Assembly: GCA_023853785.1 (NCBI GenBank)
Contig: JAJIRX010000244.1
Coordinates: 1-64,000, forward strand
DNA from: Psilocybe azurescens
Lineage: Eukaryota > Basidiomycota > Agaricomycetes > Agaricales > Agrocybaceae
DNA length: 64,000 nt
Direction: 5' to 3'
Position 1 is the first letter of the stretch; every line of letters begins with the position of its first letter. Shown here piece by piece: positions 20,248-53,266 of the stretch. Position numbers and translations under genes: made by a program. The notes under the pieces were generated by a model, which worked only from the letters and a program-made list of their open reading frames with translations, ran no database searches and was not told the DNA's origin.

Positions 20248-23200
20248 TGAGTACGAGTACGATTCCGAGCCAGCCCATCCCTCCCACTTCTCCGGCTGTA
20301 GCTGACCAGACCCGGAACTAATACCCAACCACAACCTTGGGGGCCCGAGGACCGGCATCTGCAAACATATCGAAAGGGGATGGAGATGGCGAAACGCATG
20401 ATGGATTAGGTAGGGAAATTGTCCGTGGCGGATATGGTGCGATACCCAACCGCGGTCGGGGTCGAGGTCGGGGTCGAGGTCGCTGAGGAGGAAGAGGTAG
20501 AGGCAGCGATACGGTCCCTAGAGCTGGTGCCCCTGAATTTAACGTGGTTGGGAGCACAGACAGCCGGTCCCTGGAACATCACAACCAGCTTCGACTCCGA
20601 CACCCCCGAATGTTGCGAAGGCCAACCACCACGGCTGGAGGATGCCAGAAATTGTGTGTACGCGCCCAACGCACTGTAAGCAATAATCCAGCTGCTACAC
20701 ACATATGCGTGTTTTGATTTTGATTTTGATTTTGAATTGCTTGTGTTCGACACCCATCTCCCGCTTCCGTTTTGACGATTTGATCCTTGTTGGATTCTTA
20801 TTCGTCGTACCCTACAACACGATACGATTGCTGTTGGACTGTGTATGCGCACGCGACCCGCCCGCGCCAGTCCTTGCTCTCCCTCTTATAAGACACCCCT
20901 ATCCTCACCCTCATTTCAATTTTACTCCCATTTTTGCCTGTCCCTCTCCGTGCACACACATATATTTGCGCATACACTCACTAATATTCATTGATATCTA
21001 CCTACCCCGCACATATACACCTCTCCTTATTTGTTTTTTTAACCCTCATTCCCATCCCATTCCCATTTTCTCTCGTCAGCACACATATATACTCACTACC
21101 ATCCACCTACCCTACATCCACCTCGCATGTATGCACCTCTCCTCTATGCTGGCCTCTCCTTATTCCCTTCCATGCTTGGGTTGCCTACTGTGTTAAATAC
21201 GTACTGATGTTTGCTTATTTTAACAGCACAACCACGCCGAGCTCCAGGACCGCACAGGGGCTTTTCAATCTGCCCTCTTCGGGTCTCCATCCTCATCGCA
21301 CAAGCACAAGCACAAGCACAAGCACAAGCACGCGCAGCCTATGACATCCGCCCCCGCCCCCGCTCCAACCACCGAGACTGCTACTACCGATACTCCGAAC
21401 TTGAGTAAACTAGCCGAGTACCTCGATGTCGATGTCGATGTCGATGTTCAAGGTGTCACCGATCCCAATTCCACAGCAACGATGACAATAGCGGCGTCGC
21501 AAACTCTAGGACCGTCTACAACTAGGGTTCGACCTCGAGTGACGTAAACCAGCACAAGGCTACGGTCGAACCCAGAAATGACCAGGAAAGGGACAGGGAC
21601 GAAGGGAATGGGAATAAGCAAAAAGGCGATCGAGGACGGGCATCCGTGGTGGTATCACCCTCTGTCGAAGGGCTCGACTCGAGCATCGTCATCGACCCGC
21701 GGAGGATGCACATAACATTGGGGGTGATGGCTCTCAGTCTCGATCCTCTAGGGAATGAGGATGGGGGTGGAGGTGGAGGTGATAACGGGAACGGGAACTG
21801 GAACGGGCGGGAGAAATGGAATGGGAACGGGAACGGAAGGAAAGTGCCCCCACCGGTGGTCGAGACTGCCGAGGCGAACAAGGAGGGAATGTACCGAACG
21901 TGCGGCCAGCTTTAAACACGAACCCAACTTCGACGCCAACTCCAACTTCGACGCCAACTCCAACTTCGACGCCAACTCCAACTTCGACGCCAACTCCAAC
22001 TTCGACGCCAACTCCAACTTCGACGCCAACTCCAACTTCGACGCCAACTCCAACTTCGACGCCAACTCCAACTTCGACTCCAGAGGTGATACATGGATGC
22101 AGGACTGATAACGAGGATCCCACGTCTAAGCCTGTGCCTGCACTCGACGAAAAGATCCATCCCCGAATCCGAGTCCGAATCCCAATTCTGACCCAGAGAG
22201 TGCGAACCCACCACAAACTAAGACAGTCGCCAGCGTACTCAGTCTCCTGTCCTCGCTCAAACCGCGTATCTCTGCGATTCTGGCGGGTGGCAACGGCGTC
22301 GTGATGCCACTGGAGGTTATGGGTGTGCTTAAGACGGTGAGGATGCCTGGGCCTGTACCTAACATTACCCCTCATCGGGCAGGGGCGGGGTTTCCGGGCA
22401 GTGTTTCGGAGGGTAGACGGTCTGGAGTGATGAGTGCGGGTGCGGGTGCGGATGGTGGAGGGGTGGATGTAAAGGGTGGAGGCGGCAGAGTGGAAGCCAA
22501 GCAGCGACAGGAAAAAGAGAAGGAGAGAGAGAAGGAGAGAGTGGGCGCTGGCGTGCTATACATCGGCCCGCGGGATGTGAAAGTGCAGGTGATGGCGGGG
22601 GCGGGGGCAAAGTCCATATCTGCGGAAGGAGAGAACGATGAATATGGAGAGCGACGAAAGTTGATGGAAATTTGCTGTAAGTCCCTTCTCCAATGATCCG
22701 CGTCTTGCCAGTGAAGATTTCTTACTGATGTTCTGACTTTCTTTGCCTGTTCGATTCTCGGTTGTGTATTCTCGAATACCTTGCATACCGCATACCTCGA
22801 ACATCGAACTTGAAAAAAAAATAGCGCTCGTCAACACGACATTTAAAGAAGCTGGATATCTCACGGACACCCGTCCTTTGAAGGTAAATCTTGTACTTCC
22901 TCTCCCTTCACAATTCTTTTATTCATCGAGTCATGCACCACGCAAAGCTACATTGCATCATCCTAAACGCGAGCCATCGAAAGCCAAGCAAGCGGATCCC
23001 GTTTTGTTATACGGATATTTTGGAGTCGCGAGATGCGATGAGGGTGTTGGAGGGTGGCGATGCAGATGCAGGTGTGCATGTACTACAGACTGCAGGCATT
23101 ACCACTTCGGCGTCGCTGGGAGAGACATCTGCAGCTGGATTAGCGCAGGACGGGGTAGGGGCAAGGGATAGCCAGGATCCTGGAAATCCGGGCGGAAGAC

Positions 23201-25936: not shown

Positions 25937-28900
25937 ATGTCCGCTAATCGTCAAAACCCTGCTAAAGAGTCGAAAGTCAAAGCATTGGGCAATCGACTGA
26001 AGAAATCCATGGGATTTGGATCGCGTCGGACTGCGAGCCCCCCAGACATGGTTCATGGTTTGCTAACTGCAAGCCCCCCAGTCACAGGTCATGGATCGTC
26101 GAGTGCCGTGGCAATTAGCGCTGTCGAGGCTGCAAAAATTCGAGCACAATACAAACATTTTCGTATTCTCGTTATTGGCAGGGCAAACGCTGGCAAAACA
26201 ACTCTGTTAAAGCGAGTATGCAACACGACTGAGGAGCCGTCCATCTATGACGAGGGTAGAAATCTTGTGAGCTAATCTGTCCTGCACCGGATGTCAGACA
26301 CTTATCATTTTCCAACAGCTTGTGCCGACTTCGAGGGTAATACACCTCTGTAATTTCTGCATCTCCCGCAGATAAAATGGCTGACTTTTTTATATTGTAG
26401 CGTGGAACCCATGATGTCCGTCGAGCGTTCACATTTAAGAGTAACCCAAAGTTCATCTTCCATGACTCGGCTGGTTTTGAGGCAGGGGGGGAGGATGAAC
26501 TAAAGGCTGTGATGGATTTCATCGAAGAGGGTTCAAAGGCCCGCGAAATTAATGATCAAATCCATATCATATGGTGTGTATTTATTGTTTATTTTTATTT
26601 TTATTGGAAGTACATTAAATCAAAATGAGTGCAGGTTTTGCTTTGACCCAGATGTATCACGCCCCTTATTGGACTTGGAAGTTAAATTTTTCAATGAAAA
26701 TCGCAAATGGAATAGTAAGCTTGTCATATATATCCCACTAATGATGAAAACTTACACAAACCCAGTACCAGTTGTGGCAATCTTCATGAAATTTGATGAT
26801 CTTGTCAGCCAGATTTGGGACAGAAATGATACCCCAGAGCAGAATACAAGGCATGCTTTGGATACTTTGCAGCAGAAGTTTGAGCAACCACTTAGAAGCT
26901 ATCAATTTCCTCCACGGAGTTATGTTCGGCTTGAAGGTAAGTTATTTATAATACAGCAGATCAATCTAAAGACTTAATGATATGCATAGCACTTGATAAT
27001 AATGAAAGTGATCACCAAAAACAAATTGAAGAGTTGATCAAACAAACAGCAGCATCAATTGATGATCTTGCTCTCAACATGCTTTTGTTACTGTCCAACA
27101 GAATAATTTAAATATATGCATTGAGTATGCAATACAGAGGTATGTTACTAGCTTATTGTATTTTAACTATGCTTATCATGTTTTTCAGCATTGTGCATAA
27201 AGATATAACACAAATAGTATGTTGGTTAAGGTATGCCAGATCATTTAGTTGGTTAATTTATATAAAGGATGATTTGATACTGGGCACCATCATTTGGTTT
27301 CCACACTACTGTTATGTATGTGAATATGCTAATACACTATAAAAAATGATAACTGACATTAAATTAGGATGTAAGTACTAATTGTTTACATGTTTTTAAT
27401 GGTCATACTGATAAATAAATAGCATGTGAGTGTAAAATTTTCAATTTTGAATACTATGCTAACAATATTTTATAAGTATTATAATGTAAGAATTCAACTA
27501 ATAAAAATATGATTTATGCTTCATTGTAATTGCTGATATTTTTTGAATCATTTTTATTCAGGATGTAAATTGTTTACACTGTATATGCTCAATTGAAATT
27601 GCTGATGTTTTCTGTTTCAATTCCAATTTAGGCTGTAAGTTGCGTCACACACACTGTTAGTGCAATTGCTTATACTTTTGGCAACAATTTGATCCAGCTT
27701 GTATGTTATATACACTGTTTGTGATTTATTACAATTGCTGATACTTTTAACATTGATTATATTCAGAATGTAAGTTGTATGCACTATTTGTGATTGATTG
27801 CAATGGCTAATATTTTTATATTAATTTCAATTTAGGCTGTAAGTTGTTTGCACTGTTTTTGATTGATTGCAATTGCTCATACTTTTGGCATCAATTCTAA
27901 TATAGTCTGTAAGTTGTGTGGGCTGTTTGTAATTGATCACAACTACTGATACTTTGGCATCAATTTTTATTTAGAATGTAAGTTGTATGCACAATTTGTG
28001 ATTGATTACAATTCCTAATATTTTTGGTATTAATTCTAATATAGGCTGTAAGTCATGTGCATAGTTTGTGATTGATTGAAATTGCTAATATTTATAATAT
28101 CAATTTTCATTTAGTTTGTAAGTTATATGTGCTGTGTGTGATTGATTACAATTGCTTATATTTCCTGTCTCAATTCAAATTTAGGCTGTAAGTTGTATGC
28201 ATTATTTGTGATTAATTACAATTGCTGATATTTTTGGCATCAAATTTTATTCAGCCTGTATGTTGTGTGCATTGTTTGTGATTTTTTACAATTGCTAATA
28301 TTTTTGACACCAATTTTATTCAGCCTGTATGTAGTGTGAACTGTTTGTGATTGATCACAATTGCTGATATTTTTGGCATTAATTTTTATTTAGCCTGTAT
28401 GTTATGTGCACTATTTGTGATTGATTGCAATTGCTCAAATTTCTGTCTCAATTTTATTCAGCGTGTAAGTTATGTGCAATGTTTATAATTGATTGCAATT
28501 ACTAATATCTTCTTCATCAATTTTTATTTAGTATATAAGTCATGTATACTGTTTATGATTGATTGCAATTGCTAATATTTTTGTCTCAATTATAATTTAG
28601 GCTGTAAGTTGTGTGCATTGTCCCTGATTGATTGCAATTGCTGATATTTTTACATTAATTTTAATTTAGGCTGTAAGTCATGTGCACTATTTTTGGTCAA
28701 TTGCAATGGTTTAATATTTTGTATATTAATTTTTATTCAGGGTGTAAGTTGTCTGAAGTATTTGCAATTAATTGCAATTGCTGATACTTTTAGCATTACT
28801 TCTAATTTAGGCTGTAAGTTGTGTGCACTATTTGTGATTGATTGCAATAACTAATATTTTTTGTATTAATTTTAATTTAGGCTGTAAGTTGTCTGAACTA

Positions 28901-30224
28901 TTTGCAATTAATTGCAATTGCTCATACTTTTGGTATCAACACTATTTTAGATAGTAAGTTGCATGCACAGGTTATACTTAATTGCAATGGTTCACATTTT
29001 CCATATCAATTCCAATTTAGGCTGTAAGTTGTGTATGCTGTTTGTGATTGATTACAATAGCTGATATTTCTGGTATCAATTTTTACTCAGTATGTAAGTT
29101 ACATGCATAGTTTATGATTGATTACAATTGTTGACAGATTCTGTATTCAATTTATTCAGAATGTAAGTTTTATGCACTGTTTGTGATTGATTAAAATTGC
29201 TGATATTTTTTGCCTATATTCTAATTTAGGCTGTAAGTTGTGTGCACAGTTTGTGATTCATTGCAATTACTTATGTTCTTTCTCAATTTTATTTAGCGGG
29301 TGTTGTGCACATAGTTTGTGATTAGTTGCAATAGCTAATATTTTCTGTCTTAATTCTAACATAGAATGTAAGTTGTGTGGACTATTTGTGATTGGTTGCA
29401 ATTCCTGATATTGTCTGCATCAATTTTATTCAGAATGTAAATTGTGGGCACTATATGTTATTGATTTCAATTGCTGATACTTGAGCATAAATTTTATCTA
29501 GATTGTATGTTGTGTGCACTGTTTGGGATTGATTGTAATTGCTGATACTTTTGGCATAAATTTTATTCAGGGTGTAAGTTATGATTGCAGTTGCTAATAT
29601 TTTTTGACTCAATTTTCATTCAGCGTGTAAGTTATGTGCACTTTTTATCATGAATTTCAATTGTTAATATTTCTATCTCTTTTATTTAGCATGTAAGTTG
29701 TGTGCACTGTTTTTGCTCAATTAAAATTACTTATATTTTTAACAACATCTTTTATCTAGCTTGTAAGCTGTGTTTATTTTATACATGATTCAATGCTGAT
29801 TTTTGTTTTTTTCTGAATATTGCTTGTATTTTTTAGATACACAAAATTAAACAAATTATTTGTGCTCAGTACACTGTAAGATTTTGTTTAGGTCCTGGAC
29901 TTGCATTATAAAACTTCATTATTCATGATGTATTATGGTCATAGATGCCATCTCTAGATGCTTTTGCAGGTTGGGATATAGCCACTCTATTTTGCTGTTT
30001 GTGTGTCTCATCATTTTATTCTAGCAATCCTTGTCTCACTTGAATATTCCTTCTGGGTTACTGTGACTGGTGACGATAATCTTCACCAATTTTTGATAGC
30101 TTGGACCACTTATCTGAAAGATAAATGTGGACAGGTTGATCAACTATTAAAAGATTATCTATCATTTATGCAGGAAGGTGACTGGGTCACAAAAATTATT
30201 GCCCATCTGATGATGAGCTTGTGA
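25937..30224 (+). CDS. small-GTPase-like (P-loop G-domain) protein whose gene contains an intron array
   Basis: Exons are 25937-26266, 26319-26336 (18 nt), 26401-26573, 26635-26714, 26766-26936, 26990-27139 and 27189-27315. All have GT-AG borders. The protein shows a Walker A (GRANAGKT, residues 81-88), a DxxG switch (HDSAGF in exon 3) and a G4-like AIFMKFDD (NKxD variant) near 26779-26802, then QQNN...CIEYAIQ near 27095-27137. One missing T near 27083 explains a frame change; without that repair the frame stops at 27111. After 27315 come 36 intron-like repeats with 3-nt exons, then a 39-nt exon 29837-29875 and an exon from 29982 with a hydrophobic segment (ILAILVSLEYSFWVTV). All are in the same phase. 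A shorter form could instead stop at 27342. Agaricomycetes carry many such G proteins of unknown role. Confidence 0.7.
27316..29836 (+). repeat. tandem array of ~37 intron-like units (~70 bp) separated by single-codon micro-exons
   Basis: Units are mostly 66-71 bp. Each starts with a donor, carries a branch-like CTGAT/CTAAT (sometimes CTCAT or CTTAT), and ends in TTTAG, TTCAG or TATAG. Between one AG and the next GT there are exactly 3 nt at 35 of 36 boundaries and 9 nt at one (27477-27485). Donor hexamers: GTAAGT 24, GTATGT 5, other GTRAGN 3, GTAAAT 2; two are damaged (ATAAGT at 28535, GTGTTG at 29300). All 36 boundaries keep AG. Trinucleotides: GCT 10, AAT 5, CCT 3; GAT, CAT, CTT, CGT, TAT and GGT 2 each; TCT, TTT, ATT, ATA and CGG 1 each. 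None is a stop and 33 of 35 end in T. Confidence 0.9.
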
Positions 30225-30897
30225 AATTTCAAAATATAGTTCTCAAAAACCTTCTTCGTAAGCTAATTTCTTTGTCTCTGTTATATTTATATTATTGATA
30301 TTATGTACCACTTTAGCCCATCCTAACTCCAGCATTTAATATGATGATCAGTAGTTCAAATATTTATTATGTATTCAAAATCCAATATATATAAATGCGA
30401 CATTGTGGCTTCAAATCTTGCCACAAAACAGAGATGTGAATCAGACACACTAGACATAAGGGTAGGAATAGTGATCAATTTTGAGCTTATTTATTAAATA
30501 GTTCATTAACATTCAGAGTGTTAATAATACTAGTGTTGGAGCAACACTAAAATTAGTGTGACAAGGCCACCAACAAAGACAAGAAAGAGAGTAAGAGCAG
30601 TGGATGAAGAAAGAGCAGAAGACAAACTTACAGTGAGGGAGAAAATTAATACAATGTTTTATGAATTCAAATAAACCAAGAATGACTCAGGAACTAAGTG
30701 TGCTATAATCTTAAAATTTTAAATCTAGCTAGCCCTGCATATTATCTATCTAACTATCTAACTATCTATATATAATTATATCATCATAATTTTTTCCACA
30801 TTATAAACTATTTGAAAGTATATGTGCATTATAACAGTTTTTGTCCCTCTCAAGAATTGTACAATAAGTGACAAAAATATTCAAATGATTTTTGAAG
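30225..30897 (+). other. AT-rich flank between the GTPase-like gene and the KDZ transposon
   Basis: If the one-base repair seen elsewhere applies near 30192 (run of five A), the last exon could extend about 60-90 nt beyond 30224. An open stretch at 30568-30675 (RPPTKTRKRVRAVDEERAED) has no start or splice support. The last ~80 bp resemble the Tc1-like sequence on the far side of the KDZ element (shared GTCCCTCTC). Confidence 0.35.
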
Positions 30898-50652: not shown

Positions 50653-53218
50653 ATGTCTTCAGACAACAACACAGTTGCTAAAGTTAAACCATTGTCAAAT
50701 TCAAACTATCCTGAATGGGCTGGGGAGATGAAGGCATGGTTAATGCGAAATGGACTATGGAGATTGGTATCTGGCAAAGAAGCAAAGCCAGTTGCTAGTG
50801 GGGATAAATTCATCAATGAAGAGGTAGTGGCAAAGTGGGAGATGAAGGCAGAGAGGGCAGCAGGTGAAATCTACCTGCTTGTGGAGAATGATCAAAGGGT
50901 GCACTTTAGAGGGCATGATGAAGATCCAATCAAGATGTGGGCATTGCTTGAAGCTGCTCACCTGAACAAGAAGCCAGGAGCACGATTCAATGCGTATGAT
51001 GACCTGTTCTCTATCAGGAAGCAGGACGACGAATCCCTAGTAACTTTGGGAACCCGAATTGAAAAGGCCATGCAAACTATTCAGAACTTGCGTCCAGCCG
51101 ACTTTAAGATTGAGACACTTGATGAAGAGCTTCAGTGCATGGCACTCATACGTGCCTTGCCTGATGACTACAGACATCTTAAGCGGTTTCTCTGTTGTTG
51201 ATGGAAAAGCTGGACAAGTCGGTCATCATGCAGGGCGTTCGCAGCGAAGAGTTGAATCGTCAACGTCAAACAACAGAGTCGTTGAACCAAGTGAAAGCAG
51301 GTGGCAGTGGGGGCAAGAAGCCATGGGAAAAGCGAAAACCTGGGCCAAAGGATCGGTGCAATTACTGCAAAGAATTGGGTCATTGGGTTTTCAACTGTCC
51401 AGAGCTGGCAGAAAAGAAAGCAAAGAATGAGAGTGCCAAAAGGCAGAAGAAGAGAAAGCAGCGGCAGTGACAGAATTTGCTGGAAAGGCAAGTGCTGTTG
51501 CTGAACACGAGGTCAATTCTACATCTTCTAACGTATTTCATTGGAACACAGACACAGGCGCCACTTCTAATATGACACCGCATAGAAACTGGATACGCAA
51601 TTATACCCCATATAGAGTGCCTATTAGACTAGCGGACCATAGAGTTATATATTCAGAGGGCATTGGTAGTGTTCTGTTCAGACCGTTAGTTAGAGGAAAA
51701 CGATATAGAGATGTAGAATTCACTAGAGTACTTCACGTTCCTGCACTTCGTAATAATCTTCTTGCTGTTTTATATTTGACAAAGTACAAAGGCATTGATG
51801 TACATATTTCTCATGACAAAATGGACTTTTCTTCACAAAAGAAACTCTTGTTTACTGCTACCATTGATACAGACAATATTGGATATTTAGATGGCTCTAC
51901 AGTAGATGTTATGGAAAATGTACATTTGGCTTCGACGCTGCCTCTCGACTTGTCTTTATGGCATAAACGGTTAGGACACCACAACTATGATGGGATTAAG
52001 TTCATGATAAAGAAAGATCTAGTTGATGGTTTAGTACTGGACTCGAGAGCTTTACCAGATCCTATATGTGAACCATGTCTGGCAGGAAAGATGCATGCAA
52101 ATCCATTCCCATCATCAGATAATCGTGCTACAGAGGTCTTGGAATTGATCCACACAGATGTGCATGATGTTGGTATCTTGTCACATTCTGGCTATCGTTA
52201 TTGGGTTTCATTTATTGATGATGCTGAACGCTTTAAAGTGCTTATCCCTATGAAGCGCAAAAGCGACACATTCACTTGCTTTAAGACGTTCAAAGCTTAT
52301 GCTGAGAACTTGACTGGCAAAAAGATCAAACGACTTCGGGAGGATAAAGGTGGTGAATACATGTCAAAAGAATTCCAAGAGTACCTGGATGCATGTGGAA
52401 TTGTGAGAGAGCATACCTGCAGAAACAGACCACAGCAAAATGGGGTTGCTGAACGTGCAAATAGAACATTTGCTGAAAGGATTGTTGCATTGCTTGAAGA
52501 GTCTGGTCTGTCCAAGAAATTTTGGGCTGAGTGTTTGGCTGCACTTGTGCATGTCTTGAATCGTTGTCCTACATCTGCTGTTATTGGGAGAACTCCTTAT
52601 GAAGGTTGGCATCGCAAGAAACCTGATGTCAGTCATTTACGTGTTTGGGGATGTGTTGCATATGTTCACATTCAAAAGGACAAAAGGAAGAAATTGGGTT
52701 CACACATGGAAAAGTGCATCTTTATTGGATATCCAGATGGTTACAAGGGTTGGAAGTTTTACAATCCGGAAACTAAGAAAGTCATTATCTGTGAAAGAGC
52801 AGACTTTGATGAACGCTACACATATGGTGGAGAATTGATGACATCCAATCAGCATGATGCAATTGAACCCGAACCAATTCCTATCCCAGAGTCAGAAAAT
52901 GAACAAGAAGTACTACCACCTGTCTTGCCTGAGGTAGACGAGATTGCACCTCCCACTGGACCTAACCCAGCACCTAAAGTTGACAAAGGGAAACAGAAAG
53001 CGATTGAGCCCACAATTGAAGAGGAGGAGAAGGAAGAGATTGAATTGCCAGGACGTACCAAACGTAATGCCAGGATTATTGAAAGTGATCCAGAGGAAGA
53101 GCCACGGAAGCGTATAAAGCTTCAACCTCATAAACATGTCAAGCCTGTTGCTGCAGTTCGACGTTCCAAACGTCTTGCAACAGGTAATAACAAGTCAGTA
53201 CCAGAACCTGAACCAGTG

Positions 53219-53266
<48 letters not shown>

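Follow-up and report, generated by a model that had tools for sequence, protein, structure and literature searches.

Can introns follow one another so closely that each adds a single codon to a protein, and can such a series form the variable part of a gene family? This question is raised by a GTPase-like gene of the basidiomycete Psilocybe azurescens, which begins at 25937 on the forward (+) strand of contig JAJIRX010000244.1 (assembly GCA_023853785.1). The stretch analysed, positions 1 to 64,000 of this contig, is referred to as the window; the contig is C236 in our numbering of the 70.4-Mb assembly of 937 contigs. Between two exons of this gene, termed C and D below, an initial annotation made from the sequence alone had described about 37 intron-like units separated by single-codon exons, and had proposed that they are spliced stepwise or skipped as a block, allowing a variable peptide insert. 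Beyond that description, we found that such arrays recur across a multigene family, that hypervariability in the main family is confined to codon positions 1 and 2, and that the window copy is damaged. We consider it probable that the array is a minisatellite of intron-plus-codon units, spliced stepwise and giving rise to a variable protein segment whose diversity is selected.

Intron-like units and their splice sites

In the window, 36 boundaries delimit 37 intron-like units (27316-29836). Two exons of 3 nucleotides (nt), one of 9 nt and then 33 further 3-nt exons make up the array. The first two are GAT at 27368-27370 (AAT in many paralogs) and CAT at 27423-27425 (likewise CAT in many paralogs), and the 9-nt micro-exon at 27477-27485 reads TATTATAAT (in paralogs GATTATGAT, DYD or similar). 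The 33 others, at 27562-29762 with introns of about 67 nt, have the deduced residues DALNASNAFAPPPR(Y)AAGAAIAYNA(R)NNIGRHL, in which (Y) marks a boundary without GT and (R) a boundary misplaced by the segmentation. These 33 boundaries were obtained by a segmentation that did not demand AG or GT, and the three leading micro-exons were placed separately. AG is present at 36/36 boundaries and GT at 35/36, the one exception being the unit with the micro-exon at 28532-28534 (TAT/ATAAGT). At 29295 the segmentation was off by 2 nt; by eye, the boundary reads AG/CGG/GTGTTG. Thirty-three of the 35 trinucleotides end in T (the others are ATA and CGG) and 0/35 are stop codons. All of these counts came out as first reported, and the unit length of about 70 bp was borne out by Tandem Repeats Finder (TRF), which gave a period of 70 bp with 72% matches (score 1504).

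A 301-base array query gave 222 matches in the same genome, and a search for the boundary pattern gave 411 matches as against 0 in the reversed control. The downstream exon found 40 matches at 31 loci of the GTPase family, the window among them; these loci include 24/24 contigs among the array matches listed. We read 26 arrays, namely those of the window, of 24 further loci and of a distant paralog on C758. Unless stated otherwise, family-wide figures refer to a set of 24 arrays that excludes C758, treated alone, and the decayed locus L023, which was added back in one rerun with 13 units after trimming. Further loci matching the array are two on C539 and one each on C387, C313 and C323, the last being cut by the contig end. 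In the main family, arrays have between 8 and 50 recognised units, and that of C758 has 44. The flanking exons can be aligned across the family with the exception of L009, which is without the upstream part; the alignment of the downstream exons left out L020 and L023, and exon D aligned poorly in diverged copies. Upstream of about 4000, L009 (C680) has a low-complexity CTCTATTCC stretch in place of the usual upstream gene part, and of the gene itself no more than the 3' part is seen. On C281, C313, C323, C139 and C861, arrays lie near contig ends or on short contigs, so that the assembly may be interrupted by arrays and may understate the number of copies.

The segmentation scored 44 positions, and end boundaries scoring <26 of 44 were trimmed. 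Over the 24 arrays, 663/681 boundaries are canonical, that is AG, 3 nt and then GT (or GC), with 0 stop codons; with L023 added, the count is 671/694, again with 0 stops. All 4 GC donors are GCAAGT, which is tolerated by splicing. Conservation in units selected by a regular expression was dropped as proof, because the expression itself demands AG and GT, and the segmentation was used instead. In the 12 arrays with an interior mismatch of at least 12%, termed diverged, mismatches amounted to 3452/17316 (19.9%) in the interior, 14/666 (2.1%) at AG and 16/666 (2.4%) at GT (Fisher p 2e-43 for AG and 1e-41 for GT against the interior). AG and GT are thus kept eight to nine times better than the interiors, which indicates that the units have been maintained individually as introns. 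With L023 included, the counts were 18/692 for AG, 20/692 for GT and 3622/17992 for the interior. L023 itself (C860:35000-44092) is a natural contrast for lost constraint: 3/13 units are without AG, 2/13 have an extra base and the downstream exon contains a stop.

A CTRAY branch word, placed by the initial annotation about 30 nt before AG, is present within -42 to -18 in 567/681 units, with the A mostly 24-28 nt ahead of the exon. Its conservation was dropped as strong evidence after a control with 50 interior words. A gapless count at -27 gave 65/333 misses and no difference from the interior (p 0.89), a count spoiled by small indels. The claim that the splice words are the best-kept part of the units, which we checked by measuring conservation, therefore stands for AG and GT in diverged arrays, while the upkeep of the branch word is modest.

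Hypervariable codon positions

Nucleotide diversity at codon positions 1, 2 and 3 was.67,.70 and.06 in 396 units of 70 bp; units of other lengths were left out of this count and of the control-dinucleotide count below. In L013, introns differ by 0.010 per base and codon positions 1 and 2 by.41 and.52. When units with 68 identical surrounding bases were paired, leaving out those without AG or GT, positions 1, 2 and 3 differed in 45.8, 58.2 and 0% of the pairs within arrays (n=478) and in 67.8, 72.6 and 0% of those between arrays (n=1288). Control dinucleotides given the same treatment within arrays differed in a median of 1.3% and a maximum of 13.4% of pairs. One 68-base context is shared by 58 units of 7 loci, which carry 12 codons, all NNT. 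In NNT codons any change at position 1 or 2 alters the amino acid, except between AGT and TCT, and T-to-C changes at position 3 are always silent. The hypervariable positions are hence the amino-acid-changing ones, in the frame set by both flanks, and the excess is found at sites where a change would alter the protein.

The same difference is found between loci. The closest pair, with downstream flanks 0.7% apart, differs at 5/54 codon bases across 27 matchable units, and in six pairs with flanks about 3 to 6% apart, 31 to 61% of the codon bases differ compared with 1 to 5% in introns; these figures are low estimates, with uncertain unit matching that is biased to equal codons and with unmatched units left out. 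Old exons surrounded by homogenised introns were rejected as an explanation in view of the different codon strings of close paralogs.

The distant paralog C758 shares 34% identity in the downstream exon and has its own GTPase exons. Of the boundaries in its 44-unit array, which has GTGAGT donors, 42/44 are canonical and no stop codon occurs. The codons are CGA, GGA, GAA, CAA, TTT, TTC, GTC and others (Arg, Gly, Glu, Gln, Phe, Val and Leu), and the diversity is.67,.64 and.63 at the three positions compared with an interior mean of.17 and a highest interior column of.57. All three positions vary, and a T at position 3 is consequently no general rule of the system. Within this locus (L029/L031, C758:26600-34600), a three-unit higher-order repeat of TTT, CGA or CAA, and GGA is found, with GTGAGT and not GTAAGT donors. 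Such higher-order repeats carry codon and intron jointly, which means that the two are not independent there.

The gene and its relatives

Nine relatives known as proteins (Phlegmacium P0071 and jgi P0055, P0083, P0121, P0123, P0124, P0125, P0128 and P0129) have an equivalent segment. A YxYGKTE-like motif is followed by 18 to 35 barely alignable residues and then by a part resembling QN..V..FM...KPSL..FAALLICLENSFW. The leading micro-exons of the arrays, N, H and DYD, resemble the motif N.(Y/H)DY(G/D) ahead of the variable segment in these relatives. In P0121 this segment consists of 33 residues of only 5 kinds, which recalls the locus-specific palettes of the arrays. P0130 and P0123 are alike in 150/159 residues up to KTED, after which P0130 continues as GVSCSLLFLQ, as through a GTGAGTTGT donor read from the protein letters, and P0123 as PPVGGPVGGLLGQLRR. 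We infer that P0130 represents an unspliced and P0123 a spliced form.

The WF.H motif occurs in 32 genome-annotated relatives among the 130 proteins analysed, and 29/32 end before the conserved C-terminal SFW part; several of these run on as VS. or VC., as via a GTGAGT- or GTATGT-like donor deduced from the residues. These early ends may stem from gene finders failing at such arrays. Among WF.H proteins from short contigs, a filter found 6/11 that reach the SFW part; P0102 reaches it too, as do P0128 and P0129, which fell outside the filter. Four annotated Lactarius GTPases (P0041, P0051, P0094 and P0105) have (E/D/G)VST... tails right after WFRHSY, as through a phase-0 GTGAGTAC donor; Lactarius, too, may thus have the first intron of a region of this kind.

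A structure model of P0071, with a predicted local distance difference test (pLDDT) score of 84, shows helices after a G domain, and confidence is low at 293-302, immediately before the variable part (304 on). The model of P0121 has a mean pLDDT of 57.9, and its low-confidence region 228-259 overlaps the variable stretch at 235-267. Structure matches of P0071 are led, weakly, by IRG GTPases.

In the window, exon 1 (25937-26266, coding) encodes MSANRQNPAK...FRILVIGRANAGKTTLLKRVCNTTEEPSIYDEGRNL with the P-loop GRANAGKT. It matched Pfam Arf above the cut-off and MMR_HSR1 just under it, and 109/110 residues are like those of Psilocybe cyanescens CVT25_007320 (P0092), the top eight protein-search matches all being from that species. 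Exon A (26990-27139, LDNNESDHQKQIEELIKQTAASIDDLAL...) is followed by exon B (27189-27216, IVHKDITQI), which has an AG acceptor and a GTATGT donor and agrees with the spliced form in P0007. Exon C (27268-27315, DDLILGTIIWFPHYCY) passed as open in 21/24 copies; it is missing in L009, and the aligned part was too short in L027 and L032. Its phase-0 end is the array's first donor. Downstream of the array, where an exon from 29982 had been proposed, we find instead exon D (29837-29875, 39 nt, phase 0, IHKIKQIICAQYT), exon E (29945-29969, 25 nt, MPSLDAFA) and exon F (30025-30257, ILVSLEYSFWVTVTGDDNLHQFLIAWTTYLKDKCGQVDQLL...). Relative to the paralogs, the window copy contains two frameshifts, one in exon A and one in exon F. 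The statement that the flanking exons are open and in one phase is consequently right for C and D around the array and not for this copy as a whole. Two other repeats were found in the window by TRF, an 18-bp tandem repeat at 21924-22082 (8.8 copies, 99% alike, CCAACTTCGACGCCAACT), which is possibly coding, and a CAGAAC hexamer repeat at 53196-53265 (11.7 copies).

Competing explanations and significance

According to the reading that we favour, each 70-bp unit would consist of one short spliceosomal intron of about 67 nt and one codon. The introns would be removed in turn, and each removal would append one codon and restore a donor; we infer this order from the distance of 3 nt between an acceptor and the next donor, which could hardly both be occupied by splice-site complexes. 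In the mRNA, about 10-50 residues would be inserted in the helical C-terminal part of the GTPase, between WF.H.Y..N.(Y/H)DY and ..PS..AFAA(I/L)LI..E.SFW, and it is well supported that the micro-exon codons would be translated in frame. Duplication, loss and homogenisation of units within and between some 30 gene copies would keep the introns alike, and the two amino-acid-determining bases would change far faster, most likely by strong selection for protein diversity, with unequal exchange and selection acting as in PRDM9 and HNWD. Skipping of units would yield isoforms, always frame-neutral. Of the original interpretation, the upkeep of the units as introns, the phase of the codons with the flanks and the variable insert are supported by the 24 arrays and the distant one; skipping as a block is possible and frame-neutral, but as the sole mode it would leave the unit-wise upkeep of GT and AG unexplained. 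The likeliest use of the insert would be a putative recognition role in non-self or defence. It seems doubtful to us that the family goes further and forms a dedicated diversification system with a codon library, targeted renewal of two bases, combinatorial inclusion of single-codon exons and a large recognition repertoire.

The array could instead be one giant intron (27316-29836) removed whole, with units that are a satellite merely resembling introns. The phase-0 borders of exons C and D do allow the two to be joined in frame without the array, and P. cyanescens P0005, in which exon C is missing too, as well as Lactarius P0122 are annotated with the stretch skipped in frame. This is unlikely, however, given the better upkeep of AG and GT by single units of diverged arrays, a hypervariability that touches codon positions 1 and 2 but not 3, and the 18 to 35 residues that nine full-length relatives carry at this place. 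Codon-targeted hypermutation, which would randomise two exon bases without special selection while splicing proceeds as outlined above, would suit the form of the codon differences. Between context-identical units these look saturated (47/90 change both bases), and single changes are rich in transversions (9 transitions to 34 transversions, or 34/43, compared with 28:18, or 18/46, in introns; p 2e-4). Yet position 3 of the same codon is unchanged in all 1766 pairs, codons are mostly stable in the closest locus pair (flanks 99.3% identical), and codons for Ser, Thr, Val, Pro and Cys occur less often than expected if the two bases were independent. We regard this explanation as quite unlikely.

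A satellite decaying in pseudogenes, with splicing and translation lost, would account for the breaks outside the array in the window copy and many others and for the several acceptors lost by L023. The purifying selection on exon A (ratio of nonsynonymous to synonymous substitution, dN/dS, 0.15 among 18 open copies), the splice ends kept in most units and the codon-structured diversity make it very unlikely. Least of all do we expect mobile, introner-like introns to have interrupted an old exon behind each of its codons. The introns are near-identical copies, as such an origin would have it, and a segment of comparable length occupies this position in relatives for which no array is known, but it is implausible that introns should have landed >650 times at 3-nt intervals and each time in phase 0, and 24/24 contigs among the unit matches listed carry the GTPase family, a search in which single copies elsewhere could be missed. 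Moreover, the codon strings of close paralogs are quite unlike one another despite flanks that are 94-97% identical, which indicates that the codons are young.

Several observations weigh against stepwise splicing with selected diversity. As segmented, 18/681 boundaries are non-canonical; one is misplaced and the rest include 0-, 1-, 2- or 4-nt exons, a lost AG and a lost GT. At least one such boundary occurs in 11/24 arrays, the other 13/24 being canonical throughout. The branch word was kept in 83.5% compared with a mean of 67.5% over the 50 interior words and ranked 4th of 50. Codon position 3 is not T in 32/681 units and is thus better kept than interior bases, an upkeep that protein selection alone does not explain. 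Constraint on exons C and F is mild (dN/dS 0.53 and 0.57). Exon F is not open in 14/24 copies (open in 10/24), and exon A, which L009 does not have, is open in 18/24. Both are open, and all boundaries canonical, in the well-kept copies at C660:99-103 kb, C136:50-55 kb and C836:85-95 kb. Many copies have single-base length differences at homopolymers in exon F (e.g. L010, L011, L013, L014, L016-L022 and L035), and the breaks outside the arrays are either pseudogenes or assembly or sequencing errors. Lactarius P0122 is without a variable segment at the relevant spot, although its annotation may skip the segment, and the short jgi contigs are presumed to be complementary DNA. To our knowledge, there is no report of dozens of 3-nt exons being spliced in series.

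Parts of the proposed system of intron-plus-codon units have known counterparts. In schistosome micro-exon genes, many short symmetric exons of varied sizes allow variable proteins; here, in contrast, the array is homogenised and contributes one codon per unit. The arrays have near-identical units with hypervariable codons, as diversifying minisatellites do. TALE repeats are comparable diversifying repeats, and in PRDM9 each unit encodes a whole finger and no splicing is known inside the array, whereas here the unit is an intron with a single codon. For the PRDM9 zinc-finger coding minisatellite, a rapid turnover is reported, with selection acting on the recognition positions (PMC3890296). A fungal multigene family with diversifying repeat arrays is likewise found in HNWD (het-d, het-e and het-r), the WD-repeat NLR genes of Podospora anserina, for which extremely polymorphic arrays, concerted evolution and recombination within and between members are reported (PMC2873952, PMC1805685). 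In contrast to HNWD, where the repeat is coding and the protein is the scaffold, the repeat is here an intron and coding sequence is limited to one codon per unit.

Splicing can handle exons of 1-3 nt, also in a fungus, as abstracts report for a 1-nt exon in APC11 (PMC4674806), a 1-nt exon in fungal CYP621A (PMC12940212) and a 3-bp exon in Drosophila homothorax (PMC7392893). These are single exons, and the abstracts mention neither an array nor hypervariability. Successive steps that re-create a donor are described for stwintrons and recursive splicing (PMC9024468, PMC6224609). Stwintrons are nested, the inner intron interrupting a splice element of the outer one; here successive introns are adjacent, separated by one codon, and a GT and an AG of its own are present in nearly every unit, with 3 nt from one unit to the next. 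An array of single-codon exons was not found in the full-text literature searched, in which subscription journals and preprints are thinly covered. No gene described so far is known to us in which dozens of consecutive single-codon exons supply a stretch of protein at one residue per repeat. If the proposed reading is true, the arrays would test the minimal size of exons in series and the order of intron removal, a diversifying repeat could have introns as its homogenised scaffold, and fungi would gain a new kind of hypervariable gene family.

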